DNA of 26,265 nucleotides from a virus, in IMG/VR virus record IMGVR_UViG_3300024353_000025, positions 1 to 26,265 of that record, one strand, 5' to 3'. Below the pieces are notes generated by a model. That model had not been told where the DNA came from, searched no databases, and saw nothing but the letters and a program-made list of their open reading frames with translations. A program made the translations under genes and the position numbers. This document shows positions 535 to 25,623 of this stretch, one piece after another. Position 1 is the first letter of the stretch; every line of letters begins with the position of its first letter.

Positions 535-2196
535 ATGCCTTATAAAAATAAAAAGAAACAAAAAGAATATCAAAAGAGATATAGAGAGAAAAAAAGGGTT
601 TCTAAAAGTTTACAAAAAACCCAAGAAACCTTTAGTAGAAAACCCTTCTGTTATGTGACAAAGACAGGGAGGACTGTTAGACAGGAGCAGTTAGATGAGT
701 TTGCTTTAAAGACAGAAGATTCAAAGCAGATAAAAGATATATTTGCAGAGAAATATGGAACAAAAGAATTGATTGAACCTCTTTATAATCCTGCAATATT
801 AGCCTCTCTTTTAGAGATGAATGCTTATCATGCTAGATGCTGTGATGTAAAAGCTAAGGATACAGCAGGATTGGGGTTTTCATTATTTTCTCAAGTAGAA
901 AAACCAAACGAAGCAAAGAAAGAAGAAATAAATAATTTTCTTATATCTCAAAAACCTCCTATAACAGTTTTATTTTCAAGGATGCAAAAAGATTGTGAAT
1001 CTATCGGATATGGAGCTATGGAAATGGCAAGAGTTGGGAATGTTCCTACAGGACTTCCTAAATCATTACATCACATGCCTGCTCATACTATAAGAATTCA
1101 CAAAGATTGGAATAAGTTTGCTCAGATCAGGGGAATTAGAACTCGTTGGTTTAAGAGAATAAACTATGAAAAAGATATAGATTGCAATAATGGAACTGAA
1201 CATGAATTGGGATCTCTTGATCCAAAAGATAGAGCAACTGAGGTTCTTTGGAATACAGATTATACAACTAGATCAGATTATTATGGTCTTACTTGTGTTG
1301 CTCCTGCTATCGGAGCTATTTATGGAGATTTAGGAAGGAGAGATTATAATATTGCTTTCTTTTCAAATTTTGGAGTTCCTGCTTATGCTGTATTTATAAG
1401 TGGAGATTTTGATCCTGGCAAAGAAGATGCTGAAGGAAAAACTGAATTAGAAACAACAATAAGCGAACATTTAAAAGAACTTATTAAATATCCTCATTCT
1501 ACCTTAGTTTTGTCAATTCCTACAAGAGTAGCAGGAGAAGGTAAAGTTAAAATTGACTTTGTCCCATTGTCTACTGATGTTAAGGAAGCTTCGTTTAGAC
1601 TTTTTAGAAAAGATAATAGAGATGAAGTTATGATAGCTCATGGTGTTCCTGGATATCGGATTGGAATAATTGAAACAGGTTCTTTGGGAGGCAGTACTGC
1701 AAGAGAATCTACAGAGATTTATAAAAGGTCTGTTATTGATCCTCGCCAAACAGTTATAGAACAACTTATAAATCAGGAAATAATCTGGCATGAAAATGGA
1801 TTTGACACTAAAGACTGGAAAGGTAAATTTGCTGAGATAGATACAACCGATGAAACACATGAAAAAGAAATGATAGGCTTTTTATTTGATCAGGGAGCAA
1901 TGACAATAAGAAATGTAATTAAACATTATGCTGATAAATTTGGGCTTGAAGATGATCCAGATGATCCTTTGCTTGATATGAGATTTGTTAAGGGAATGCC
2001 ATTAACAGAACAATTTATTCATACTGCAGAATTTAAATCAGTAGTAAAGAGCTTGCGAAATAAACTTTTAGAGAGGGTAAAGAAAAGTGAAAAATCTGAT
2101 AATGATATTGGAAATAGAGAAATCATTAAAGCAATTGGAGATCTCGGAGCATTGGTTGAGATGGGAGAAAAAAGCCGAAATAGAATTAACGCATAA
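535..2196 (+). CDS. Phage portal protein, PBSX/XkdE-like
   Basis: Portals form the dodecameric ring at the capsid vertex through which DNA enters and leaves and onto which terminase docks. The 553-residue length is typical. The core begins near residue 80 with a segment (LLEMNAYHARCCDVKAKD, about 92-109) characteristic of PBSX-type portals, followed by the mixed alpha/beta clip and stem region and a charged C-terminal tail. The first 22 or so residues are very basic (PYKNKKKQKEYQKRYREKK) and are not usual for the family. They resemble the N-termini of small phage nucleic-acid-associated proteins, so they are either an added tail or a start called too early. The gene lies between terminase and the MuF minor head gene, whose 5' end overlaps its last codons. 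Confidence 0.9.
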   Translation: MPYKNKKKQKEYQKRYREKKRVSKSLQKTQETFSRKPFCYVTKTGRTVRQEQLDEFALKTEDSKQIKDIFAEKYGTKELIEPLYNPAILASLLEMNAYHARCCDVKAKDTAGLGFSLFSQVEKPNEAKKEEINNFLISQKPPITVLFSRMQKDCESIGYGAMEMARVGNVPTGLPKSLHHMPAHTIRIHKDWNKFAQIRGIRTRWFKRINYEKDIDCNNGTEHELGSLDPKDRATEVLWNTDYTTRSDYYGLTCVAPAIGAIYGDLGRRDYNIAFFSNFGVPAYAVFISGDFDPGKEDAEGKTELETTISEHLKELIKYPHSTLVLSIPTRVAGEGKVKIDFVPLSTDVKEASFRLFRKDNRDEVMIAHGVPGYRIGIIETGSLGGSTARESTEIYKRSVIDPRQTVIEQLINQEIIWHENGFDTKDWKGKFAEIDTTDETHEKEMIGFLFDQGAMTIRNVIKHYADKFGLEDDPDDPLLDMRFVKGMPLTEQFIHTAEFKSVVKSLRNKLLERVKKSEKSDNDIGNREIIKAIGDLGALVEMGEKSRNRINA

Positions 2197-3697
2197 GTTA
2201 AAGAAGTTATTTAAGATTACATTTGAAAGGACAATTTCAAAGCTTCAAGAAATGAAGTCTGTTCCTTCAAGTGATATTATAAGAAAACCATTGCTTTTTG
2301 AAATAGAAAGTTTAAGAGAAGAATTTAAAGAAATTATTAGTGAGAGCGTAATAGAATCTGTAAATGTAGGTAGAGAAAGAGTTTTGTTATTTGCTGATTC
2401 TTTAGCAGTAGAAACAGAAATGCACTTTGAAAATTTAATAATGAAACAAGCAATTGTTGAAATTCCATTATTAGAATATTCAAAACAATTTGAGAAATTG
2501 ATTAGAGATAGTGTATTTATAGCTAGTGATGCGACAATGGATCGAATAATGGGAGATATAATGGAGAATCTTGCTGATAGTTATGTTCAGGGATTAGGGA
2601 TTGGAGAAGCTTCAAATCGTTTGAAAAAAGTATTTGATTCTATAGAGGATTATAGATTAGAGCGTATAGCGAGAACAGAAATTCAATCATATCAGAACTT
2701 AGGATCTCATCATACCTGCATAGATTTAGGAGTTCAATATGAACAATGGTGGTCTGCAAGAGATGAAAGAGTTAGAAGTAGCCATGCTTATCTTCATGGT
2801 CAAATTGTAAGAACAGGAGATAGTTTTAGTAATGGATTAATGTATCCTGGTGATAGAAGTGGTCCTATTGAAGAATGGATTCAATGTAGATGCAGGTTAG
2901 TTCCTTTTCTTATGCCTTTCGGATATACAGCTCCTGTAGGACAACCATATTTTTATGAAGGAGATTTAATAGAAAGTGGACTGGAAGAACCTGAATTTGT
3001 GCTAGCAACAACAACAGAAGAAGCACAGGAATGGGCAGAGATAAATTTAGGTGTCAAAACAAAAGGTTATAAAAATTTAGAATTAGATCTGATTAATGAA
3101 TTACATAAGGAATATTCGGATTTAATGAAAAAATATCCTTCAGGAACAAAAAATTTGTCAAGAATTTTTGTTAGTAAAGCTAAAGGGAATGCTCGTGCAG
3201 GTGTTAGTGGAACTTCTAATATTTGGGGAAATTATAATCTAAATATTTATATGCAACATATATATGATAAAGAGTCTTTAATTTCAACTGTTAAATATGC
3301 TAGGGATATAGGATATTTAACTAAAATTGATAAAGCAAATGAAATGAAAGGTCTTTTTACTCATGAATATGCTCATTTATTATTTCAGACTTATAAAATT
3401 CCAAAAATAGTGATAGACTTACCTGTAGGATATATGGAATGTGAAAGTGGATTAGAGAAGATAAAAAAATCTTATGAATATGCAATAAGAGATTTAAAAA
3501 AGAAATGTGAAGATGGAATATTAAGCCGAAGTGAATGGCAAAGCGAATATGGAAAAATGTTTATTTCAATGCGTGCTGAAAAGAATATTGATGAATTTTT
3601 GGCTGAAAGTTTTGTACAGGTAGAATTAAATAAATCACCTTCAAGATATGCAATTGATGCTGTTAATATTTTAATGAAGTTTTTAGGAAAGCAATAA
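2087..3697 (+). CDS. MuF (SPP1 gp7-like) minor capsid protein fused to a HEXXH metallopeptidase-like domain
   Basis: The N-terminal ~300 residues are a phage head morphogenesis protein of the Mu gpF/SPP1 gp7 family. Markers are an arginine-rich helix ending LERIARTEIQ (191-200), ARDERVRSSH (224-233) and the closing QCRCRLVPF (267-275). Such proteins bind the portal and can enter the host with the DNA. From about residue 310 there is an unrelated domain with HEYAH (426-430), a HEXXH zinc-peptidase signature, and a downstream acidic helix DEFLAESF (502-509) that could supply the third zinc ligand. MuF proteins with variable C-terminal toxin domains are known phage polymorphic toxins, and this one fits that plan. 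The start is uncertain: GTG 2087 overlaps the portal by 110 bases, while TTG 2156 has a GGAG six bases upstream and begins nearer conserved sequence. Confidence 0.85.
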   Translation: MKNLIMILEIEKSLKQLEISEHWLRWEKKAEIELTHKLKKLFKITFERTISKLQEMKSVPSSDIIRKPLLFEIESLREEFKEIISESVIESVNVGRERVLLFADSLAVETEMHFENLIMKQAIVEIPLLEYSKQFEKLIRDSVFIASDATMDRIMGDIMENLADSYVQGLGIGEASNRLKKVFDSIEDYRLERIARTEIQSYQNLGSHHTCIDLGVQYEQWWSARDERVRSSHAYLHGQIVRTGDSFSNGLMYPGDRSGPIEEWIQCRCRLVPFLMPFGYTAPVGQPYFYEGDLIESGLEEPEFVLATTTEEAQEWAEINLGVKTKGYKNLELDLINELHKEYSDLMKKYPSGTKNLSRIFVSKAKGNARAGVSGTSNIWGNYNLNIYMQHIYDKESLISTVKYARDIGYLTKIDKANEMKGLFTHEYAHLLFQTYKIPKIVIDLPVGYMECESGLEKIKKSYEYAIRDLKKKCEDGILSRSEWQSEYGKMFISMRAEKNIDEFLAESFVQVELNKSPSRYAIDAVNILMKFLGKQ

Positions 3698-4036: not shown

Positions 4037-5911
4037 ATGAACATGAAATTACAAGGAGATAGTTTAGAAAGTAGAATAGATCGAATTCAATGGGGAATAA
4101 GGGAATTGTTTGAAAATATTTCTACAGTAGAAGGAGAGATAGTTAGTATAGGAGTTATAGCAACCTTTGATGATGTAGTTATTGTTAAAGATTATAATTC
4201 ACAAAAATTATATTCATTGGAATATTCTGAATTAGATGGAGAAATAAAATTTGGAAGTCCTAAAGAAGTAGATAATGTTTATGTAGTAAAACAACTTATA
4301 AATGCGAATCCTGATGTAACTCTAAAAGATATGCAGGATCTTCTTGATAGTTGGGATGATTGGTCAGATTCATTAGAGAAATATATGGCTGTAATTAAAG
4401 GGAAGTCTGGGATTAATAATCCTAAGGCTTTATGGACACAGTTATATTTTCAAAAGAAAGAAGAATGGCCTGTTGAAAAAATTGAAATGAAATCTAAAAG
4501 TCTTATAGAACTTACTGGTCCGATAGTATTTAAGAATGTTAAAAAAAGAATTGCTTTCGCAGCAGTTCTAGTTCCTGGAGAAGAGGATTCAGATGGAGAA
4601 ATTGTATCAAAAGAGAAAATTGAAGATGTGGCTCACGAATGGATGGAAGATTATCAGCATATTGATTTAAAGCATAGTTTAAATGCTGTTGGAAAACCTG
4701 TTGAAAGTTATTTAACTTATTCGGAAAGAACAGTAAAGAGCATTGATGGTGAAGAAATTACTTTACCTGTAGGAACTTGGATTTTAGGTAGTAAATTAGA
4801 TGAAGAAACTTTTGAAGCAGTAGAAAAAGGTGAATTGACAGGATATAGCATTATGGGAGTTGCAAGAAAAGCATTGAAAGAAAAGGATTTGAAAAAAGCA
4901 TTGAAATCTCTTCAAGATGATACAGATATACTAAAAGTTTTAAAGAAAACATTACTTAAAGATTTAGGTCCAGACTGGGTTCCAGTTGCTGTGGCGGTTG
5001 TAGGTTCTCCAGCAGTTCCAAAGTCAAAGTGGTTTGCATTGAAAAGTAAAGCTGTTAAACCTAAAGAAAATTTATGGGACAAAATTATAAAAACTTTAAA
5101 AGGAGGTAAAAAAGAAAATAAAATAAAAATTATTGTTAAGGAAAAGAAACCAAAAGAATGGACTAAAGCTGATGCAAAAAGTTGGTTGAAAGAGCATGAT
5201 TTTAAGCATGGAGATTACGAAAAAATTGCGAATTACCATGCTTTCAGGCAAGAAGATCCAGGAAAATATGATGAATTTAGAGCTGATAAAAAACCATTTG
5301 ATTTTGAGAAGGACGATGGAGTAATAGTAGTTTATGGGATATATAAGAAAGATGGTAAAAGAACATCTGAAATTCAATCAATTAAATTCTTTCATGGTGA
5401 AGAAGCAGAAAAATCAAAAAGTAAAATTAAATTAATAAAGAAAGGAGGAAAAACTGTGAATGAGGAAAGGAAAAAGAAAATAAAAGAAGTTTTGAAATCT
5501 ATCAAAGATGAGAAGGGAGAAGTAGAAGAGGAAAAACTTGAGGTAGCAATAGAAAAAATAGTAGAAGAAGAGATAGAGGGTGTTGCACCTGTAAAAGAAC
5601 CTATCGATGAAAAAATAGCGGAAAAGATAGAAGAAACAGTGAAGGAAGTGATAGAAACAAAACTGAAAGAAGCAATGGAAAACGTGCAGAAAGAGATTGA
5701 GACTTTGAAAACTCAATTAACAGAATTTGGAAAAGGTATGGCGACAGAAAAAGAAGTAATAAAGGAAATGGCCAAAGTTTTAAAAATTGATCCATCTAAA
5801 GCCTTAAAAGGTCAAGATGGTGGTGATGATGACGATAAAGCCAAAAAAGGCAAAGCCTTAGATTTTGGTGATCGTGATGGCTTTGGTAGAAAAAAATCTA
5901 AAAAAGAATAA
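4037..5911 (+). CDS. XkdF-like prohead protease with C-terminal scaffold region
   Basis: Maturation protease of the prohead, in the same slot as PBSX XkdF (Peptidase_S78_2-like). The protease core spans roughly residues 160-280. It includes AFAAVLVPGEEDSDGEIVS (173-191), candidate catalytic His residues in QHIDLKH (207-213) and Ser271 in GYSIMG. WVPVAVAVVGSPAVPKSKW (314-332) follows. Residues about 374-455 form a small separate domain (KSWLKEHDFKHGDY, then FRQEDPGKYDEF) known from many phage head proteins. From 474 on the protein is highly charged coiled coil, as in scaffolds. The start ATG has a strong AAAGGGGGTG site. The major capsid gene lies 28 bases downstream. An internal in-frame GTG at 5456 with a near-perfect ribosome site probably produces the scaffold part alone. 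Confidence 0.82.
   Translation: MNMKLQGDSLESRIDRIQWGIRELFENISTVEGEIVSIGVIATFDDVVIVKDYNSQKLYSLEYSELDGEIKFGSPKEVDNVYVVKQLINANPDVTLKDMQDLLDSWDDWSDSLEKYMAVIKGKSGINNPKALWTQLYFQKKEEWPVEKIEMKSKSLIELTGPIVFKNVKKRIAFAAVLVPGEEDSDGEIVSKEKIEDVAHEWMEDYQHIDLKHSLNAVGKPVESYLTYSERTVKSIDGEEITLPVGTWILGSKLDEETFEAVEKGELTGYSIMGVARKALKEKDLKKALKSLQDDTDILKVLKKTLLKDLGPDWVPVAVAVVGSPAVPKSKWFALKSKAVKPKENLWDKIIKTLKGGKKENKIKIIVKEKKPKEWTKADAKSWLKEHDFKHGDYEKIANYHAFRQEDPGKYDEFRADKKPFDFEKDDGVIVVYGIYKKDGKRTSEIQSIKFFHGEEAEKSKSKIKLIKKGGKTVNEERKKKIKEVLKSIKDEKGEVEEEKLEVAIEKIVEEEIEGVAPVKEPIDEKIAEKIEETVKEVIETKLKEAMENVQKEIETLKTQLTEFGKGMATEKEVIKEMAKVLKIDPSKALKGQDGGDDDDKAKKGKALDFGDRDGFGRKKSKKE
5441..5458 (+). promoter_or_regulatory. Internal ribosome-binding site and GTG start for nested scaffold
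   Basis: AAAGGAGG at 5441-5448 is followed 7 bases later by GTG at 5456, which is in frame with the protease gene (codon 474). Site strength and spacing equal those of the major capsid gene. Confidence 0.65.
5456..5911 (+). CDS. Nested in-frame capsid scaffold protein
   Basis: Starting at GTG 5456, this gives a 151-residue protein identical to the protease C-terminus. It is almost wholly helical and charged, with long Glu/Lys heptad-like stretches (for example KIAEKIEETVKEVIETKLKE). It ends in an acidic patch (GGDDDDKAKKGK) and a basic tail (RKKSKKE), a composition typical of phage scaffolds that bind capsid through a short charged C-terminus. In lambda, scaffold Nu3 is made from an in-frame start inside protease gene C, so the arrangement has precedent. 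The evidence here is the ribosome site and composition. The independent product itself is inferred. Confidence 0.6.
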   Translation: MNEERKKKIKEVLKSIKDEKGEVEEEKLEVAIEKIVEEEIEGVAPVKEPIDEKIAEKIEETVKEVIETKLKEAMENVQKEIETLKTQLTEFGKGMATEKEVIKEMAKVLKIDPSKALKGQDGGDDDDKAKKGKALDFGDRDGFGRKKSKKE

Positions 5912-5939: not shown

Positions 5940-6965
5940 ATGAAGTTTACAAATAAAGAACTATTAAATGCTTTAGCGTTCAAACAGATCATAACAGTAG
6001 ATGATTTAGGTAAAGCTATCTTGCAACCTGAAAAGTTTGCTGCTTTCGTAAGAGCTATGCAACATAAAACAGTAATATTGGATGAAGCAAGATTTATCAA
6101 AATGGATGCTCAAATAGTGGATATTGATAGAGTAGGGTTTGTAGGAAGGATACTGCGTTCAGGAACAAAATGGAATCCAGATACTTCAAAGTGGGAACAT
6201 AGAAAATTGACAGATGAAGAACATACAAAACCTCAGTTTGCTACTAATCAACTTATTGCTAAAGAATTGCAAGCAATCACTGGTTTAAGAGATAAGGCTC
6301 TTAGAAGGAATATTGAAAGAGGTAATTTCGAAACTACCTTAGTAGATCTCTTTGGTGAAGCAGCTGGCAGGGATATGGAGGAATTTGCTATCTTAGCAAA
6401 TACTGATATCTCTTATACTGATGATGATATTCTTTCTCTAACCGATGGTTGGATTAAACTTGCAGCTAACAAAGTTTATGGTTGGAATGCAGGAAAAGAT
6501 TTCGATCCTAGTGCTGCTACATTCCCTGAGAATATGTTCCAGGCTATGATTGATGCATTACCTAAACAGTTTTTGCAGAATGAAAGTGAGTGGAGAATTT
6601 ATGTTGATTGGGATGTGAGAGATGATTACATTGATTTGTTAAGAGAAAGACAGACTGATCTTGGAGATAGGGTTTATGTTGCGGCAGCAGGACTTGTTCC
6701 TCCATACAAAGGAATAGCAATCAAATATGTACCTATGTTCAATCGAAGTAAAACAAAAGCAGAAGGTGGGGTTGGAAGAGTTGCATTACTTTCTCATCCT
6801 GCTAATATGGCTTGGGGAGTATTTCATGAAGTGACTGTAGAACCTGATAGAATTCCATCAGATAGAAGGACAGATTTCGTTCTTACACTTGAAGGTGATG
6901 CTCATTATGAAGATGAAAATGGTGCAGTTGCTGCTTTAATTGATCAGAAAAAACCTGTTAGCTAA
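5940..6965 (+). CDS. Major capsid protein (HK97-fold type)
   Basis: The 341-residue length, the position right after protease/scaffold and a strong AAAGGAGGT site mark this as the coat subunit. The sequence has the general order of HK97-fold coats seen next to XkdF-type proteases. An N-terminal helix is followed by a segment like the E-loop (VGFVGRILRSGTKW), then an acidic region with GEAAGRDMEEFAILANTD. The C-terminal A-domain contains LLSHPANMAWGVFHEVTVEPDR and the closing beta strands. No large N-terminal delta domain is present, consistent with scaffold being a separate part of the upstream gene. An intrinsic terminator follows, which would favour high expression of this gene relative to the cassette beyond it. 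Confidence 0.85.
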   Translation: MKFTNKELLNALAFKQIITVDDLGKAILQPEKFAAFVRAMQHKTVILDEARFIKMDAQIVDIDRVGFVGRILRSGTKWNPDTSKWEHRKLTDEEHTKPQFATNQLIAKELQAITGLRDKALRRNIERGNFETTLVDLFGEAAGRDMEEFAILANTDISYTDDDILSLTDGWIKLAANKVYGWNAGKDFDPSAATFPENMFQAMIDALPKQFLQNESEWRIYVDWDVRDDYIDLLRERQTDLGDRVYVAAAGLVPPYKGIAIKYVPMFNRSKTKAEGGVGRVALLSHPANMAWGVFHEVTVEPDRIPSDRRTDFVLTLEGDAHYEDENGAVAALIDQKKPVS

Positions 6966-6978
6966 ACAATAAAATAAT

Positions 6979-7024
6979 GGCTACTTTTTAAACATAAAAA
7001 ATTTGAAGAGTAGCCTTGTTTTTT
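6979..7024 (+). terminator. Intrinsic terminator after major capsid gene
   Basis: The outer stem GGCTACT (6979-6985) pairs with AGTAGCC (7009-7015). It extends inward through T/A and G-T pairs to about 14 bp, and TTGTTTTTT follows. It separates the capsid gene from the glycosyltransferase cassette. Confidence 0.8.
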
Positions 7025-7039
7025 AAAAAAGGGGTTTAG

Positions 7040-7579
7040 TTGATTTATACCTTTATCCCATATTCTATAGAAGGGAATTTGGTAGTAGCTTATGAAAAAT
7101 GCATGAAATTAATAAGGGATGATGATTGGGCATTGTTTTTGGATTATGATGTTATGTTCACTCGCAGAGATTGGTATGTTTTATTTGTTAAGGCAATTAA
7201 AAGATATCCAGAAGTTGGAGTTTTCACTTGTTACACAAACAGGATCAGAACAAAGTTTCAAAAAGCTCCTGGAATAGATAGAAATAATCATGATATGGTC
7301 TATCACATGAAGTTTGGGCAAAGACTTTATGAAAAGAATGGGGATTCTATTACCATTTTTCCTAAAGGAGAACATCTTGGTGGATTTGTAATGTTAATCA
7401 GGAAAAGTGTTTGGAATAAGATTAGACCTCTTAAAGAAAAAGGTATTGAGTATGTTGATATTGAAATAGGAAGAAAATGCCATGCTAGAGAAATCAAGAT
7501 AGCTCGATTAGATGGACTTTATGCATATCATTGGAGAAGGGGGCTTAATGAAGGTCCTCCTAAGAAAATAGAAGGATAG
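7040..7579 (+). CDS. Compact GT-A fold glycosyltransferase
   Basis: A 179-residue family 2-like sugar transferase. It begins with IPYSIEGNLVVAYEKCMKLI, then DDWALFLDYDVMFT, where the DYD is the metal- and nucleotide-sugar-binding DxD-type motif. FTCYTNRI, GGFVMLIRKSVW and the acceptor-side segment EYVDIEIGRKCH follow. This short layout recurs in environmental phage genomes. The start is TTG 7040 with AAAAAAGGGG five bases upstream. It is the first gene of the cassette after the capsid terminator. The sugar donor and acceptor are unknown; virion protein or host envelope polysaccharide are both possible. No membrane segment is seen, so it is probably cytoplasmic. Confidence 0.78.
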   Translation: MIYTFIPYSIEGNLVVAYEKCMKLIRDDDWALFLDYDVMFTRRDWYVLFVKAIKRYPEVGVFTCYTNRIRTKFQKAPGIDRNNHDMVYHMKFGQRLYEKNGDSITIFPKGEHLGGFVMLIRKSVWNKIRPLKEKGIEYVDIEIGRKCHAREIKIARLDGLYAYHWRRGLNEGPPKKIEG

Positions 7580-7607
7580 TTTATTTTTTAAATAGTGGAG
7601 ATATTGA

Positions 7608-9473
7608 GTGTATGACAAAATATTAAAAGAAGAGAAAAAAGTCATTGTAAAAAATATTGCTCCTTTTGATGTAGAAAGAGCAGGACAGATTTTTAAAGCA
7701 GGAAAAGAAAGATTTGTGCATTTTTCACATAAATTAAATCTCGAAATAAGTGCGTGTTCACATTTAGTTATTATAACAAATAGGCATATATTAGATAAAC
7801 AAATTGAAGAAAAAATAGAAAAGAAAGCATCTACTATAAGTAAATATTCAGAACATTCTAAAGTTAGAATAGGATTTGTACCCCATCAGAGTATAGATGA
7901 TAAACAAATTGCAGCAGGAACAAGAATTAGAGTATTAAATGTAGTAAAGCATCTTGAGAATTGTGTAGTAAGTTATGAATATGAGGATTTAAAAAATTGT
8001 GATGTGGTTATATTTCAAGCCCGATGGTTGTCTGGAGATATAGAACTTGCCAAGAAATTAAAAGAACAGGGAATAAAATTAATGTTTGATACTACTGATC
8101 CTCATTGGGATACTATAAATTTTGACCTTACAGGTAAGAAAAGAAAAGCATTTGATGAGCTTCTTCCATATATAAGTGTGGTGATGTTTCCAACTAAAGA
8201 GTTGGAACAATCTTTTTTGAAGTATAGACAAGATAAAAGGGTTGTGATAATTCCTGATTGCATAGATTTAGAAAAGCATAATGAAATTAAAAAGCATGAA
8301 AAGAAGAATCAATATAATATAGCTTGGTATGGATGTAGAGTTAATATATGTTCTCTTGATTTAGCAAGGCAAGATTTAGAAAAATTGGGTAAAGAATTTA
8401 ATCTTAAAATGATAGCAGTATATGATCAAGGATATAACGATAAGCAAGGTAATTTATGGGAAGTTAAACCATATAAAAATCTTGATCTTGAAATTAGAGA
8501 ATGGTCAGATGAGATTACCATAGAAACTATACTTGAAAGTGATGTGGTAATAAATCCCAGATTCGAAGATTGGAGAGTTTACAAATCACATAACAAAACA
8601 ATTAAAGCGTTGGCTTTAGGAGTTCCCTGTGTAGAGAAAAATTACTACGAAGAAATTAAAAGATATTTATTATCTGCAAGTTTGAGAAATAAAGATGGTA
8701 AAAAAGGTAAAAAGATTGCAGCCAAATTTTGTAGTAAAAAAATAGCTAAAAAAATATCTGATTTATGTAATGAATTAGTTAGTAGAGAAATAACTAAAAG
8801 AAAAAGAAAAAGAGAAATTGCAGTAGTGACAGCGATAACAGGGGGATTTGATAAATTACATGAGCCAAAGTATTTTGATGAAAATGCAGATTATTTTGCT
8901 TTTATGAATCAGAAGGTAAAATCCAATGTTTGGCAAATAATACCAGTAGAATATACACATTTTAAACAGCCTCGTATGTCTGCTAAAATTTATAAAATAC
9001 TTATACACAAATATCTTGATTATGATTATTGGCTTTGGATAGATGGTTCATTAGTTTTAACTGATTCTATAACTGAATTGATAGATAAATATTTAGATGA
9101 TACAGATATGGCTTTATTTAAACATAGGTTTAGAGATTGCATATATGAAGAACACTTAGCTTCAATTAGAAACACTCAACATGCAATAGGCGAATCCATA
9201 AATGTAAGGAAAAAGCAAATAGAAAGATATAAAAGTGAAGGTTTTCCTAAAAAATATGGATTATATGAATGCACTTTTATTTTAAGAAAAAATAACAAAA
9301 ATATTCGAAAATTTAATAATGATTGGTGGGCTGAAATATCTATCGCCTCTTCATCTGACCAAGTGCCATTTATGTATACTTTGTGGAAAAATCCAAATAC
9401 TAAAGTAGCAAATATTGCCCCAGGTGATTCACATAATAGTAAATGGGCTCATTATATAAAACACGGAGCGTAA
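7608..9473 (+). CDS. Two-domain glycosyltransferase: small N-terminal domain + GT-B-like + DUF616
   Basis: Three parts are visible. Residues 13-56 are a small beta-type domain (VKNIAPFDVERAGQIFKAGK ... CSHLVII) that is duplicated in the gene at 10889. Residues about 85-385 look like a GT-B/GT4-type transferase: VRIGFVPHQ at its start, NCDVVIFQARW, VVIIPDCIDLEKH, YNIAWYGCR and KALALGVPCVEKNYYEE. Residues about 402-615 match DUF616 (TOD1/MUCI70-like), with REIAVVTAITGGFDKLHEP, YWLWIDGSLVL and a late SSDQVPFMYTLW. Each catalytic half would transfer a sugar, so the protein may build a disaccharide. The start is GTG 7608 with GTGGAG 8 bases upstream. The fusion is unusual, and substrates cannot be read from sequence. 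Confidence 0.72.
   Translation: MYDKILKEEKKVIVKNIAPFDVERAGQIFKAGKERFVHFSHKLNLEISACSHLVIITNRHILDKQIEEKIEKKASTISKYSEHSKVRIGFVPHQSIDDKQIAAGTRIRVLNVVKHLENCVVSYEYEDLKNCDVVIFQARWLSGDIELAKKLKEQGIKLMFDTTDPHWDTINFDLTGKKRKAFDELLPYISVVMFPTKELEQSFLKYRQDKRVVIIPDCIDLEKHNEIKKHEKKNQYNIAWYGCRVNICSLDLARQDLEKLGKEFNLKMIAVYDQGYNDKQGNLWEVKPYKNLDLEIREWSDEITIETILESDVVINPRFEDWRVYKSHNKTIKALALGVPCVEKNYYEEIKRYLLSASLRNKDGKKGKKIAAKFCSKKIAKKISDLCNELVSREITKRKRKREIAVVTAITGGFDKLHEPKYFDENADYFAFMNQKVKSNVWQIIPVEYTHFKQPRMSAKIYKILIHKYLDYDYWLWIDGSLVLTDSITELIDKYLDDTDMALFKHRFRDCIYEEHLASIRNTQHAIGESINVRKKQIERYKSEGFPKKYGLYECTFILRKNNKNIRKFNNDWWAEISIASSSDQVPFMYTLWKNPNTKVANIAPGDSHNSKWAHYIKHGA
7644..7775 (+). repeat. Domain copy 1 of the duplicated 44-residue segment
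   Basis: This encodes residues 13-56 of the GT-B/DUF616 protein. It matches the segment at 10982-11107 in about 24 of 42 aligned residues, with runs FDVERAG, FKAGK and CSHLVII identical. Many codons are also the same or differ only at the third base. Confidence 0.8.
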
Positions 9474-9478
9474 TAAAT

Positions 9479-10354
9479 ATGTATGAAGATGAAAAACGAA
9501 GATTTAAAAACATGCAGGGATATGAATTAAATCTTGATAATCCGCAGACTTATAGCGAAAAGATTGTATATAAGAAATTATTTGATAGAAACCCTTTATT
9601 AATATTAACAGCAGATAAATATAGGGTAAAACAATATGTTAGAGATAAAATAGGTTGGGAAGCAGACAATCATTTTGTCCCGTTATTATACGTTACTGAC
9701 AATCCTGAAACAATACCATTTGATAGACTACCTGAAGAATACATTATCAAGCCAAATAATGGAGCTGGAAGATGGATTCTTGTTGAAAAAGGAGAGGGAT
9801 GCAAAAAATATGAATTTAATTCTACACGTGAAGAATATATAAATTTAAGTAATGAGCAGATAATAAATCTTTGTAAAGAATGGTTTAAAACAATTCACGC
9901 AATTCAATGGTATGAATGGGCATATCAAGAAATTAGTCCATTGATTATAGTTGAAAAGGTATTACGTGAAAAAAAAGGTAATATTCCAAATGATTATAGG
10001 GTTTGTATGTTTGGTGGAAAATGTAAAATGATATATGTGACAAGTCAGCATCAGACTACTTTTAATTTTTATGATGAAAATTGGAAGTTAATGAATATTA
10101 AAAGACGTGGACACGAAATTATTTCAGATTTAAAGAAACCTAAAAATTTTAATAAGATGATAGAACTTGCTGAGAAATTAAGCAAAGGATTTGATTTTAT
10201 ACGGATTGATTTTTATTTAGTAGATGAATATATCTATTTTAGCGAGATAACACATTATCCAGCTTCTGGACACGCCACATATCCTAAAGAGCTTGACTTA
10301 AAATTAGGGAAATACTGGAAGATAGGAAGTGGTGTATATGATAGATATATATAA
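9479..10354 (+). CDS. TupA-like ATP-grasp enzyme
   Basis: The 291 residues match the TupA-like ATP-grasp family, found in polysaccharide loci and named from teichuronopeptide synthesis, where an amino acid is ligated to a polymer carboxylate. Visible family marks are LDNPQTYSEKIVYKKLFDR, LTADKYRVKQYV, YIIKPNNGAGRWILV (ATP-binding lysine and glycine loop), VCMFGGKCKMIYV, and FIRIDFYLVDEYIYFSEIT, which carries the metal-binding acidic residues. The ATG at 9479 was chosen because the longer in-frame start at 9443 would overlap the previous gene by 31 bases; GGAG lies 10 bases upstream. Next to two sugar transferases, it probably adds a decorating group to the glycan. Confidence 0.78.
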   Translation: MYEDEKRRFKNMQGYELNLDNPQTYSEKIVYKKLFDRNPLLILTADKYRVKQYVRDKIGWEADNHFVPLLYVTDNPETIPFDRLPEEYIIKPNNGAGRWILVEKGEGCKKYEFNSTREEYINLSNEQIINLCKEWFKTIHAIQWYEWAYQEISPLIIVEKVLREKKGNIPNDYRVCMFGGKCKMIYVTSQHQTTFNFYDENWKLMNIKRRGHEIISDLKKPKNFNKMIELAEKLSKGFDFIRIDFYLVDEYIYFSEITHYPASGHATYPKELDLKLGKYWKIGSGVYDRYI

Positions 10355-10892
10355 ATGGGCAATAGAAAATAATCTTATTAAGGCTTCTGCTCTACCAAGT
10401 TTGAAAGTAATGAAGGATTTTTTCTGTAATTTAAAAATTAATATTGCAGTAGAAATTGGAACATTTTATGGAGTTTCTGCTACTTGTATTGCTCGGTTTG
10501 CAAACAAAGTGCATACATTTGACATTATAGATCATCCAGAAAAAGATAAAGTGTGGAGCAAATTTAAAGTTGAAGATAAAATTTCTTTTCATCTTATAAA
10601 AGGTAGAAATGTGGTGGATAATACTTTTAAAGATTTTGAGGGGATACATACACTTACTGGCAAAGAAGGAGATATTGAAACAATACTTAATACTATAAAT
10701 TTTGATTTTGCTTTTATAAATGGTAGCCATACCTATAAGGATGTTAAAGCAGATTTTGAACTGGTAAAAAAATGTGGAAGAGTATTATTCCACGATATTG
10801 ACCCTGAATTTGTAGGTGTGCATAGGTTTACAAATGAAATAGGAATTAAAGTTATTTGTCATAATATTGGTTATTGGGAGGGATTAAAATGA
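10338..10892 (+). CDS. Class I SAM-dependent methyltransferase
   Basis: A 184-residue Rossmann methyltransferase of the Methyltransf_24/CmcI-like type. AVEIGTFYGVSA carries motif I of the SAM site, VHTFDIIDHPE the acidic strand 2 end, FDFAFINGSHTYKDVKADFE the metal-binding-like region typical of this subgroup, and GRVLFHDIDPE the following strand. ATG 10338 is preferred because AGGAAG lies 8 bases upstream; GTG 10329 would sit within that site. It overlaps the ATP-grasp gene by 17 bases and the next gene by 4 (ATGA), so translation is coupled. The likely role is O-methylation of the glycan or its acceptor, inferred from neighbours only. Confidence 0.78.
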   Translation: MIDIYKWAIENNLIKASALPSLKVMKDFFCNLKINIAVEIGTFYGVSATCIARFANKVHTFDIIDHPEKDKVWSKFKVEDKISFHLIKGRNVVDNTFKDFEGIHTLTGKEGDIETILNTINFDFAFINGSHTYKDVKADFELVKKCGRVLFHDIDPEFVGVHRFTNEIGIKVICHNIGYWEGLK

Positions 10893-11128
10893 AAAAAAGT
10901 AAGAAAAAACCTGTTAGTAAAAAGCAATATATAAGCATAGATGAAGATAAGAAAAAACCTGTTAATAAAAAACAATATATTTATGTTAAAAATATTGTTT
11001 CATTTGATGTTGAAAGGGCTGGTAAAAAATTTAAGGCGGGAAAGAAAACTCGTATTCCTAAAGAATTAGAAAAACAAATTAGACCATGCTCACATTTGGT
11101 TATTATAAAAAAGCAGGTTAGGGAATGA
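10889..11128 (+). CDS. Small Lys-rich protein with domain shared with the upstream transferase
   Basis: This 79-residue protein starts at ATG 10889 in an ATGA overlap, with GGGAGG upstream. Residues 1-31 are a lysine-rich tail made of a partly repeated unit (KKKPVSKKQYISIDED then KKKPVNKKQYIYVKN). Residues 32-73 are the small beta-type domain also found at the N-terminus of the GT-B/DUF616 protein (VKNI, FDVERAG, FKAGK, CSHLVII). Short beta-rich proteins of this look are common between capsid and connector genes in phages, where some decorate or join the head. A capsid-associated role is therefore reasonable but unproven. It ends in another 4-base overlap with the connector gene. Confidence 0.68.
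   Translation: MKKSKKKPVSKKQYISIDEDKKKPVNKKQYIYVKNIVSFDVERAGKKFKAGKKTRIPKELEKQIRPCSHLVIIKKQVRE
10901..10981 (+). repeat. Tandem 48-bp repeat (about 1.7 copies)
   Basis: The 33-base stretch starting AAGAAAAAACCTGTTA at 10901 recurs at 10949 with three mismatches, giving a 48-bp, 16-residue period. It encodes the Lys-rich tail. Confidence 0.75.
10982..11107 (+). repeat. Domain copy 2 of the duplicated 44-residue segment
   Basis: This is the counterpart of 7644-7775. The two copies bracket the central part of the accessory cassette. Confidence 0.8.
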
Positions 11129-11529
11129 ATAATGAATTATATTACTCTACTCCTGAAGATGTAATAAATGCTACAGGAGTGGAACATAAAGATTTTAAGC
11201 ATATAGAAACAGAGGAAGAGCTAAAAGCAATGATAGAAGGGTGGCTCGTCGAGATAAAAGATTTTATAGATCAAGATCGAAATAGGGATTATCATCTTGA
11301 AGATAAAATCCCTAAAGGAATACACAGCATAGCGAGAAGAGCATGTATTAATATGGTAATTTATGCTATACAAAGTCAGCGTTCTCCTGTTATTAGAATT
11401 GGTGATTGGTCTATTCGAATGGTAGAAGAGCGTGTATTCACACCATCACTTTTGGCAGACTTACATAAATTTCCTGCAAAGCCATTATTTAGGATATATA
11501 GAATTGAAGGGGAAACAATAAGTGAATGA
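11125..11529 (+). CDS. Head-tail connector/adaptor protein
   Basis: A 134-residue protein in the adaptor slot (gp6/SPP1 gp15-like, as PBSX XkdH). It opens with YYSTPEDVINATGV, a common start for these proteins, followed by an all-helical pattern (EEELKAMIEGWLVEIKDFID, RRACINMVIYAIQSQ) and a short beta region near the end (IRIGDWSIRMVEE). Adaptors form a ring under the portal after packaging and provide the tail docking site. It overlaps the previous gene by 4 bases and the next by 8, so the accessory cassette is stitched into the structural operon without a gap on this side. Confidence 0.7.
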   Translation: MNNELYYSTPEDVINATGVEHKDFKHIETEEELKAMIEGWLVEIKDFIDQDRNRDYHLEDKIPKGIHSIARRACINMVIYAIQSQRSPVIRIGDWSIRMVEERVFTPSLLADLHKFPAKPLFRIYRIEGETISE

Positions 11530-11986
11530 GGGATTCAAAATTAATTTTAGGTGGAAAATTAAAGATATAGAAAGAATGAAGGAATTGCCTCTCTATAGTT
11601 TTGAAAGAGCTTTAAAATATATAGCTATTTGTGTCTGGGGAGAGATGGGAAAAGAAGCTCCTTATGATCATGGAAGACTCGCAGGTTCGTTTGATTTAAA
11701 ATCGATAAGAAAATTTGCTTGGGGAATTTACAGTGGTGTTCTTTACTCAATATTTGTCCATGAAGGAACTGGAGTACATGGACCTGTGGGGCAACCATAT
11801 TTCATATCCCCTGTTACTAAAAAAGCATTACATTGGAAAAAAGGGGGAGTAGATTATTTTTCTAAAGGACATTGGGTTTTTGGTCAAAAACCTGATCCTT
11901 ATGCTGATAGAGCTGTAGAAACAGCTCAAAACCGAGTAAGTGAATTTATAAAAAGAGCAATAAGAGAAACAAAATGGTTGGATTAA
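11522..11986 (+). CDS. HK97 gp10-like tail completion / head-tail joining protein
   Basis: A 154-residue member of the HK97 gp10 family (PBSX XkdI-like). The family pattern is a helix with APYDHGRLAGSFDL, then WGIYSGVLYSIFVHEGTGVHGPVG (a loop and strands present in nearly all members), followed by DPYADRAVETAQNRVSEFIKRAI, the C-terminal helix. The protein sits at the head-tail interface and completes the connector. The start is GTG 11522, overlapping the adaptor stop. In this protein the segment between the two core halves is lengthened (YFISPVTKKALHWKKGGVDY), as in many gp10-like proteins of Firmicutes phages. Confidence 0.82.
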   Translation: MNEGFKINFRWKIKDIERMKELPLYSFERALKYIAICVWGEMGKEAPYDHGRLAGSFDLKSIRKFAWGIYSGVLYSIFVHEGTGVHGPVGQPYFISPVTKKALHWKKGGVDYFSKGHWVFGQKPDPYADRAVETAQNRVSEFIKRAIRETKWLD

Positions 11987-12004
11987 TATTAAAATGGAGA
12001 AATA

Positions 12005-12469
12005 ATGCCAATTACTAAACGATTAGATGAAGTTATTATTGAAATATTGGATGGAGTAGTAAGTGTAATTGAAAGTGAGATCAAAGAAGGTGGATTATTA
12101 GAAGGAATAAAACAGGTTCTTGTAGGAGATCGTACTCGTGAAAATCCAGATCCTCCTATGATTTGGATTATGTGTGATCCTGCGACACCAACTCATACTC
12201 ACAGAGCATTAGCTGAAACTTGGACTTTACCAGTTATGTTGATTTGTTTTGTAAAAACTCTTGAACCTGAAGAAGGATATAGAGAAGCTAGTAGATTAGC
12301 GGCTCTTACAAGATCAGTATTATTAAAAGATAGGACTTTAGGAAAACGTGATTATATACAGGATATACAAAGTGGAATATTTAATTTAGCACAAAGAGAT
12401 CCAGAGAATGAAATTATCTTTGGAGCGGCAGCAGTAATCAATATAATCTTCACCATCTTAGAGATCTGA
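12005..12469 (+). CDS. Tail terminator protein (gpU-like position)
   Basis: A 154-residue protein between the gp10-like protein and the tail tube, the expected slot for the tail terminator. The terminator caps the tube and fixes tail length by stopping polymerisation. The pattern fits: an N-terminal helix (LDEVIIEILDGVVSVIESEI), a strand with PPMIWIMCDPATPTHT, TWTLPVMLICFVKTL, a helix REASRLAALTRSVLL and a closing strand AAAVINIIFTILEI. These alternating helix/strand elements match small terminator folds. The start ATG has GGAG 7 bases upstream. The assignment relies on position and general fold pattern more than on motifs. Confidence 0.65.
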   Translation: MPITKRLDEVIIEILDGVVSVIESEIKEGGLLEGIKQVLVGDRTRENPDPPMIWIMCDPATPTHTHRALAETWTLPVMLICFVKTLEPEEGYREASRLAALTRSVLLKDRTLGKRDYIQDIQSGIFNLAQRDPENEIIFGAAAVINIIFTILEI

Positions 12470-25170: not shown

Positions 25171-25623
25171 ATGAAGACAAAAATATGTAGTAAATGTGGA
25201 GAAGTAAAAAATCTAAATAAATTTGTAAAATCAAAAGGACATAAGTTTGGAGTTCATTCTATTTGTAAAGAATGTAAAGAGAAATACCTAAATGAATGGA
25301 GAAAAAATAATTATCATCGTTTTTGGTCAGCACGAACATTAATCCAACATAAAGGAAAAGGATTTTCAGTAAAAATTACTAAAAATGAATTAGAAAATAT
25401 AGCGGAAAAAACAAAATATTGTCTTATCTGTGATTGTAAATTAGACTGGAAATTTGGCACAGGATTGAATGCTAATTCTCCCACTTTAGACAGAATTAAT
25501 AACCAAAAAACCTTAACTTTAAATAATGTTCAAATTATTTGTAGTAAATGTAATAGAATCAAATCTAATATGTCAATGAATGAATTTATAGAATATTGCA
25601 AAATGATTTATAAAAAATTTTAA
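25171..25623 (+). CDS. HNH endonuclease (putative homing endonuclease)
   Basis: 150 residues. The N-terminus has a zinc-ribbon CSKCGEVKNLNKF with a second pair CKECK. The nuclease core has CLICDCKL, SPTLDRINNQKTLTLNNVQI and ICSKCNRIKSNMSMNEFIEYC, the betabetaalpha-metal (HNH) layout with paired zinc cysteines. The usual first His is replaced: TLDRIN occupies the site seen in the SxDRIDxxxGYxxxNVxxxC subgroup. Free-standing genes like this move between phages by cutting unoccupied sites. It follows the lysis genes, is preceded by a stable RNA structure, and starts 6 bases after GGAG. It may instead assist packaging, but packaging HNH proteins usually neighbour terminase. Confidence 0.82.
   Translation: MKTKICSKCGEVKNLNKFVKSKGHKFGVHSICKECKEKYLNEWRKNNYHRFWSARTLIQHKGKGFSVKITKNELENIAEKTKYCLICDCKLDWKFGTGLNANSPTLDRINNQKTLTLNNVQIICSKCNRIKSNMSMNEFIEYCKMIYKKF

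Follow-up and report, generated by a model that had tools for sequence, protein, structure and literature searches.

Gene content of the locus

The sequence analyzed here (the window) comprises positions 1 to 26,265 of the IMG/VR virus record IMGVR_UViG_3300024353_000025, a stretch of 26,265 nucleotides, and the locus of interest spans positions 7040-11128. As a preliminary description had stated, the genes of this cassette lie tightly packed on the same strand, with an XkdG-type major capsid gene on one side and a connector gene on the other. The features are as follows.

5940..6965, + strand: major capsid protein of the XkdG/psiM2 type (phrog_1623, 2.9e-73; tblastn to Methanobacterium virus Drs3 XkdG, 35%)
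6971..7022, + strand: hairpin followed by a T-run, terminator- or attenuator-like (MFE -19.3 kcal/mol, z -4.75)
7040..7579, + strand: GT1 (TTG start, AGGGG upstream)
7608..9473, + strand: GT2 (single open frame, GGAG upstream)
7635..7781, + strand: fused YQ domain, GT2 residues 10-58, a putative decoration domain resembling FluMu gp35/JBD30 gp39
7995..8648, + strand: GT-B-like glycosyltransferase domain, GT2 residues 130-347 (phrog_7162, 3.1e-6)
8817..9392, + strand: TOD1/MUCI70 glycosyltransferase-like domain, GT2 residues 404-595 (PF04765, 5e-18)
9443..10354, + strand: TupA-like ATP-grasp ligase (PF14305, 5.5e-35)
10329..10892, + strand: class I methyltransferase, Methyltransf_24 (PF13578, 2.8e-11)
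10874..11128, + strand: free YQ gene, 84 aa (domain at 10970-11113)
11125..11529, + strand: head-tail connector-like protein, which marks the distal edge of the site (phrog_27112, 3.3e-17)

On the 3' side of the cassette come the phrog_27112 protein, then a phrog_5 protein of the Neck1 type, and then the tail tube. The connector gene is kept downstream of the site in relatives. The named relatives of the capsid protein are the methanogen viruses Drs3 and psiM2. The host could be a bacterium, judging from an M15 peptidase of the peptidoglycan type, whereas the capsid is closest to these methanogen viruses. Hairpins also lie 3' of the capsid gene in nine relatives, at both cassette-loaded and empty sites. 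Neither this strong hairpin nor the duplication of the YQ domain had been mentioned in the preliminary description.

Enzymes of the cassette

GT1 is a GT-A-like glycosyltransferase of 179 residues with a DYD motif, which matches the glycosyltransferase family phrog_14179 (1.6e-25) and is 28% identical to Phapecoctavirus/Justusliebigvirus glycosyltransferases. GT2 is a single 621-residue protein that joins the YQ domain to a GT-B-like and a TOD1/MUCI70 domain, the latter scoring 65.9 against a cutoff of 21.4. As GT2 carries both the phrog_7162 and the TOD1_MUCI70 domain in addition to the one in GT1, the original count of three catalytic domains in two transferase genes was right. Phage-encoded glycosyltransferases, one feature of virion-glycosylation systems, are recognized here by both Pfam and PHROGs. 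A tblastn search of phages gave no mycobacteriophage match to GT2.

The identities first given to the TupA-like ATP-grasp ligase (PF14305) and the methyltransferase (PF13578) were also correct. The ligase reaches 121.5 bits, well above the gathering score of 25, and R254, D256, E268, T270 and P273 (numbering of the first aligned sequence) are kept in its relatives. It is 67% identical to its counterpart in locus L119 and 58% to that in L120, and among named phages it has only four distant relatives. The methyltransferase is 54% identical to that of L119, and no relative of it was found in named phages. By hydropathy, none of the tested cassette proteins from the window and its relatives has a clear membrane helix. 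The maximum 19-residue hydropathy is 1.36 in the cassette proteins of the window, compared to 2.55-2.69 for the hydrophobic proteins of the same phage, and the highest value among the tested cassette proteins of relatives is 1.82 (L008).

The YQ domain

The YQ domain is about 50 residues long. It opens GT2, and a second copy forms the small gene immediately 5' of the connector. GT2 residues 10-58 and positions 10964-11116 are about 51-53% identical (E 7e-10, z 18.7 over shuffles), and an HMM built from free YQ copies detects the fused copy of GT2 at 1.6e-10. In relatives, the free YQ proteins end in C2H2 or Rho_N/HeH modules. Such tails would fit contact with nucleic acid inside the head better than an outer decoration, which speaks against a decoration role. 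The free YQ protein of the window is devoid of the C-terminal zinc finger seen in relatives.

A search of PDB profiles with the whole small YQ protein returned only zinc fingers, and we therefore searched with the YQ domain alone. Its sole match was a weak one to 2OUT, FluMu gp35 (E 0.22). The top PDB match of the predicted fold was also 2OUT, with a probability of 0.98 but an E-value of 0.09. Mu gp35, which occupies the same gene position, matches YQ at 1e-5 in a test of six proteins, and the match of JBD30 gp39 to the YQ profile is marginal (hhalign P 0.004). JBD30 gp39, proven by cryo-EM to be a capsid decoration protein, covers the capsid as trimers (PMC11445458), and its PDB record describes it as a FluMu N-terminal domain protein. 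The predicted sheet, hairpin and helix elements of YQ agree with the published description of gp39. Neither Pfam nor PHROGs gives YQ a reliable name. The Pfam FluMu_N model does not match the YQ proteins, and JBD30 gp39 itself falls under its cutoff (22.5 versus 25.8). In the window and its relatives, as in Mu and JBD30, the gene follows the major capsid gene and precedes the head-tail adaptor. YQ resembles FluMu gp35 by a weak sequence match that is also the best fold match. ORF14 of psiM2, located between the capsid gene and the next gene, was considered as a candidate and turned out not to be a YQ protein.

The capsid-connector junction in related loci

An IMG/VR search with GT2 or connector peptide patterns returned nothing because exact patterns are too strict, but alignments did find relatives. 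The comparison set consists of about 85 related loci, whose capsid proteins form 30 clusters at 90% identity. The capsid-connector junction exceeds 1.5 kb in 11 of the 30 clusters, compared to 3 of 112 cases at four other head junctions (Fisher p = 1.6e-6, uncorrected for phylogeny). The placement of cassettes at this junction is not due to chance. Different glycan cassettes fill the junction in these 11 clusters, and in relatives that lack a cassette usually just one YQ gene separates capsid and connector.

A fusion of a glycosyltransferase with YQ is present in all 11 loaded clusters, which display at least five catalytic architectures. The enzymes found at the site include UDP-sugar dehydrogenase, TupA, rhamnosyltransferase-like, epimerase, cytidylyltransferase, LicD, FkbM, GT7C and Glyphos proteins. 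In the close relatives L028 and L030, the DNA is 89% identical over the capsid gene and the first cassette gene, after which the genes differ. The fused YQ domains of L012, L014 and L021 are 51-56% identical to each other, despite a different catalytic part in L012. In loci other than the window, the fused YQ shares only 35-43% identity with the phage's own free copy, with the motif kept and in frame, and most of these fused copies are closer to the fused copies of other loci. In L008 and L022, YQ is found only as a glycosyltransferase fusion. Parsimony requires five changes of the loaded state on the tree, of which the starred branches force only one. Multiple origins of the loaded state are not proved by this tree.

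The closest TOD1-TupA-methyltransferase module is that of L119, which occupies the same site next to an unrelated Phage_capsid protein. The last transferase of L119 carries a copy of the phage's own adjacent small protein (z 10, 0 of 2000 shuffles), and the TOD1 domain of GT2 is 44% identical to L119 positions 4788-5450. The TOD1-TupA-methyltransferase core of the five-gene set recurs in L119, but the whole set is found in no other record. GT2 residues 80-619 are 51% identical to a 738-residue protein of L120, which lies outside the head module and lacks YQ. GT2 residues 89-441 are 66% identical to a transferase of L127, itself directly 3' of an XkdG-type capsid gene. A likeness of the N-terminal ~55 residues of this L127 protein to YqbF found no support from any tool and is not claimed. 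The small-domain tails of L110-L113 gave no match in the PDB.

Proposed function

We consider it likely that the locus is an exchangeable virion-glycosylation cassette, in which a transferase is tethered to the capsid by a decoration-type domain. Comparison shows where the site lies, that enzyme sets are swapped there, that a transferase is fused to YQ and that YQ is like FluMu gp35, whereas we infer docking on the capsid, a virion glycan, its chemistry and its benefit, which may be shielding, adsorption or stability. As a glycosyltransferase is fused to a domain resembling shell-decorating proteins at the capsid-connector site, the enzymes probably sugar-coat the phage's own shell. They would be made late in the cytoplasm of the host, together with the head proteins. 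The YQ domain of GT2 would dock the enzyme on the capsid at the sites that the free YQ protein uses, where GT1 and GT2 would assemble a short glycan on proteins of the capsid or its decoration. The TupA-like ligase would probably amidate a sugar carboxylate and the methyltransferase would probably cap the glycan. Relatives exchange the enzyme set and retain the site and the tether, and the surface glycan would therefore differ between close relatives.

The earlier suggestion that the position favors a virion target is much strengthened by recurrence at one junction, by the decoration-like fusion and by L119 using the same site. In the phage collections searched, cassette homologues were not confined to host polysaccharide loci, an outcome that would have spoken against this suggestion. 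In contrast, a self-contained pathway for a short, aminoacylated and methylated glycan remains conjectural, as the window holds no sugar-nucleotide synthesis gene and enzyme sets vary. Alternatively, the cassette could remodel the wall glycan of the host during infection or lysogeny, causing superinfection exclusion or a receptor change, and its place in the head operon would ensure only late expression. Wall polymer loci typically encode TupA, UDP-sugar dehydrogenase, LicD and enzymes of the CDP-glycerol type, and the set of GT2 and TupA homologues in L120 lies outside the head module. However, we recognized no flippase, polyprenyl enzyme or membrane transferase, and the tested proteins have no clear membrane helix. 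A head-module domain is fused in every loaded site, and cassettes have landed at the same site beside unrelated capsids, which makes this alternative improbable.

It is also quite improbable that the fused YQ is a by-product of insertion, created by duplication of a neighboring gene or retained as homology that aids exchange, with no docking role, although the enzymes might then still act on the virion. The fused YQ of the window is most like its own free copy, and YQ lies at the borders of the cassettes or close to them, where recombination would take place. Elsewhere, the fused copies have diverged from their own free copies yet keep motif and frame, and most are closer to fused copies of other loci. 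A free copy is absent from L008 and L022, and the L120 homologue has no YQ. Modification of phage DNA by these enzymes, through glycosylation or otherwise, is very unlikely. DNA-modifying phage transferases do exist (cited in PMC12619734), and the free YQ proteins carry modules resembling nucleic-acid-binding ones, but neither the transferase families nor TupA nor the head-gene fusion points to DNA, and no modified-base synthesis gene was recognized in the window, which is a fragment. A bolder and rather doubtful reading is that virions carry glycosyltransferases as capsid decoration, a design that unrelated phages (L119, possibly L110-L113 and L127) would have reached by fusing a transferase to whichever small head protein adjoins the capsid gene. 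In L008 and L022, the glycosyltransferase-YQ protein would fill the decoration sites, and the particle would therefore be coated with enzyme.

Relation to known systems

Virion glycosylation is known in the mycobacteriophages Che8, Corndog and Myrna (Freeman et al. 2023, cited through PMC12363180, PMC12619734 and PMC11256854). These phages also encode their glycosyltransferases, which modify capsid and tail tube proteins. Their transferases may sit away from the capsid gene, at the genome 3' end in the Che8-related Maravista (PMC11256854). The papers considered here describe neither a decoration-domain fusion nor cassette exchange between capsid and connector. The locus shares with JBD30 gp39, Mu gp35 and FluMu HI1506 (FluMu_N) a gene between the major capsid and head-tail adaptor genes, and YQ is closest to 2OUT in sequence and predicted fold. 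The similarity of YQ is below the Pfam cutoff and, unlike these proteins, YQ is also fused to glycosyltransferases and has free copies with zinc-finger or HeH tails. A TupA-like ATP-grasp above the curated cutoff, to which relatives add a UDP-sugar dehydrogenase, recalls teichuronopeptide-type wall biosynthesis, but here it is encoded within the head operon of a phage, together with soluble transferases, and genes for polymer export are lacking. Phage serotype-conversion (gtr) clusters likewise alter glycans, but the present cassette has no membrane flippase or membrane-anchored transferase and differs in its head location and capsid-domain fusion.

In summary, phage virion glycosylation is already known, but the tethering and the cassette exchange look new. 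If the proposal is true, these phages would make a modular choice of surface sugars by combining a constant genomic site and a constant capsid tether with interchangeable enzymes, and the way in which a transferase in the cytoplasm reaches its target on the virion would become directly testable. A transferase that lies beside the capsid gene and is fused to a neighboring small head protein would serve as a genomic signature of glycosylated phages in metagenomes. Furthermore, it would suggest that surface variation is under selection in phages of the environment, where antibodies are never encountered.

A duplicated domain in the cassette

The window is a linear fragment of 26,265 bases from an IMG/VR virus record. 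It carries, in order, genes for terminase, portal, a Mu-F-like head protein, an XkdF-type protease, an XkdG-type major capsid protein (MCP) and the cassette, followed 3' by connector, Neck1, tail completion, tail tube, tape measure and lysis genes. All genes named in the preliminary description were borne out by profile searches. The cassette is as follows:

7040-7579, GT1, match to phrog_14179
7608-9473, GT2, GT-B-like domain plus TOD1/MUCI70 domain
9443-10354, TupA-like ATP-grasp
10329-10892, Methyltransf_24 protein
10874-11128, small gene

The methyltransferase reads INGSHTY where the related locus L119 has VDGRHSY; its Asn stands where 2 of 3 aligned relatives have an acidic residue and, judged from sequence, may alter metal or substrate use. 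Elsewhere in the window, the Mu-F-like head morphogenesis protein (2087-3694), whose gene as called overlaps that of the portal by ~100 bases, has a long C-terminal extension in which an HEYAH motif may mark a zinc metallopeptidase domain, and an HNH endonuclease-like gene (25171-25623) lies close to the contig end.

Besides GT2 itself, a tblastn comparison of GT2 with the window also matched locally at 10964-11116 (51%, E 7e-10), a similarity that the preliminary description had overlooked. One domain of ~50 residues, here called YQ, is present in two copies, in residues 10-58 of GT2 and in the small gene 10874-11128; its approximate motif is VxNxxxxxVxRGGxxFPPxxxxxVxVxxxxxxEIKACxxLxV. In most cassette-free relatives a single YQ gene is the sole gene between MCP and connector, and its product usually ends in a C2H2 zinc finger or Rho_N/HeH module. 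Free YQ proteins of relatives (e.g. L029, 15128-15400) are putative head proteins with such tails; that of the window has neither tail and begins with an extension (10874-10970) containing the internal repeat KKPVSKKQYI / KKPVNKKQYI.

The capsid-connector junction

MCP alignments collected 68 loci from viral contigs plus 16 from genome contigs. Of 30 capsid clusters formed at 90% identity, 11 have an MCP-connector junction longer than 1.5 kb, against 3 of 112 at four other head junctions (Fisher p 1.6e-6, with counts treated without phylogenetic correction). This junction is a hot spot. Two of the three exceptions, L065 and L075, have their glycan enzymes one junction downstream and lack a YQ gene. 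At the contig end of L015, a DNA methyltransferase-like frame (11446-12240) follows a ~150-residue gene at the post-capsid site, and the slot may take more than glycan genes.

The contents vary between relatives, even close ones: L028 and L030 have 89% DNA identity across the MCP gene and the cassette's first gene, and different genes from there on.

Cassettes and connectors of related loci
Largest cassette group: UDP-sugar dehydrogenase, methyltransferase, rhamnosyltransferase-like protein, GT-B enzyme; TupA or epimerase variable
L014, L021, L074: methyltransferase, LicD-type and transferase genes
L014, L021: cytidylyltransferase in addition
L012: single 914-aa FkbM-GT7C-Glyphos protein
L022: GT7C, GT-B, SGNH, FkbM
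L008: single 706-aa GT7C-Glyphos protein
Connectors with mid-protein insert: L026, L030, L033, L097-L101, L104-L106, L108, L109

In connectors of the UDP-dehydrogenase group the profile matches chiefly at both ends, with ~100-150 residues inserted between.

Transferase-YQ fusions

An HMM built solely from free YQ proteins found a transferase-fused YQ in all 11 clusters with a cassette-filled junction (E 6.6e-7 to 5e-16), mostly C-terminal and, in the window, N-terminal. The nearest relative of the window's fused copy is its own free copy. L008 and L022 yielded no free YQ gene, and their transferases contain the entire small protein including its HeH or zinc-finger tail. The fused domains of L012, L014 and L021 share 51-56% identity, whereas the catalytic part of L012 is unlike those of L014 and L021. 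These sequences suggest a fixed tether on which catalytic parts can be swapped, an arrangement probably gained on more than one occasion.

Similar arrangements occur beside other capsids. L119, found by a TupA scan, has a head module unrelated to that of the window (Peptidase_S78, Phage_capsid, Phage_connect_1), and its MCP-connector interval holds homologues of the window TOD1 (44%), TupA (67%) and methyltransferase (54%) in identical order. The last of its transferases carries at its end a copy of the small protein encoded alongside (score 66, shuffle mean 23, z 10, 0 of 2000 shuffles); this small protein is not YQ. In L127 a protein related to GT2 (66% across 360 residues) is encoded immediately 3' of a distant XkdG-type MCP, and in L110-L114 GT-B relatives lie at most a few genes past other capsid proteins, that of L114 being identified by eye. 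In contrast, the L120 protein 51% identical to GT2 is without YQ, and no head gene was recognised near it.

Genes starting MKTIGLIGGMSWES, putative aspartate/glutamate racemases by this signature, adjoin relatives of window cassette genes in L127 (8212-8916), L120 (9554-10243) and L129 (2832-3521); with a TupA-like ligase they would fit D-amino acid attachment to a glycan. L118 (Virus Rctr41k) has a Glyphos-like transferase (6980-7948), annotated only as hypothetical, within its head module between adaptor-like and attachment-like genes.

Resemblance to decoration proteins

AlphaFold modelled YQ confidently in 21 free proteins as strand, hairpin, strand, helix, strand. The top PDB match of the model in Foldseek was 2OUT, FluMu gp35/HI1506 (prob 0.98, E 0.09), and an independent search of 177,635 PDB sequences with the YQ profile returned 2OUT as its sole match (E 0.22). 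In a test of six proteins, Mu gp35, whose gene has the same position as YQ, matched at 1e-5. In the PDB, JBD30 gp39 is described as a FluMu N-terminal domain protein, and it weakly matches Pfam FluMu_N; cryo-EM places it as trimers on the capsid, and its published fold combines a three-stranded sheet with a hairpin (Cys67-Cys72) and one helix (PMC11445458). Since every link is individually modest and the Pfam FluMu_N model does not reach YQ, we claim a resemblance to FluMu gp35-type proteins and not membership. In the predicted model of the YQ-bearing L029 transferase, a GT-B fold that matches GT4 enzymes of known structure (E about 1e-9) leads through a disordered linker to a distinct YQ domain.

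A possible mechanism

In some mycobacteriophages capsids and tail tubes are glycosylated, as cited in PMC12363180, PMC12619734 and PMC11256854. Our incomplete coverage of the open literature found no description of decoration-domain fusions or exchangeable capsid-connector cassettes. A hairpin with a T-run lies 3' of the MCP gene; it would let MCP be made in excess and the cassette enzymes at a lower level, as suits catalysts. No clear membrane helix was found in the cassette proteins tested, so the enzymes probably work in the cytoplasm. The acceptor, the benefit and any chemistry past what the family names imply are inferred. On the simplest reading, the YQ-fused transferase would dock on the capsid and glycosylate it or a decoration protein, while the remaining cassette enzymes would supply or finish the sugar.
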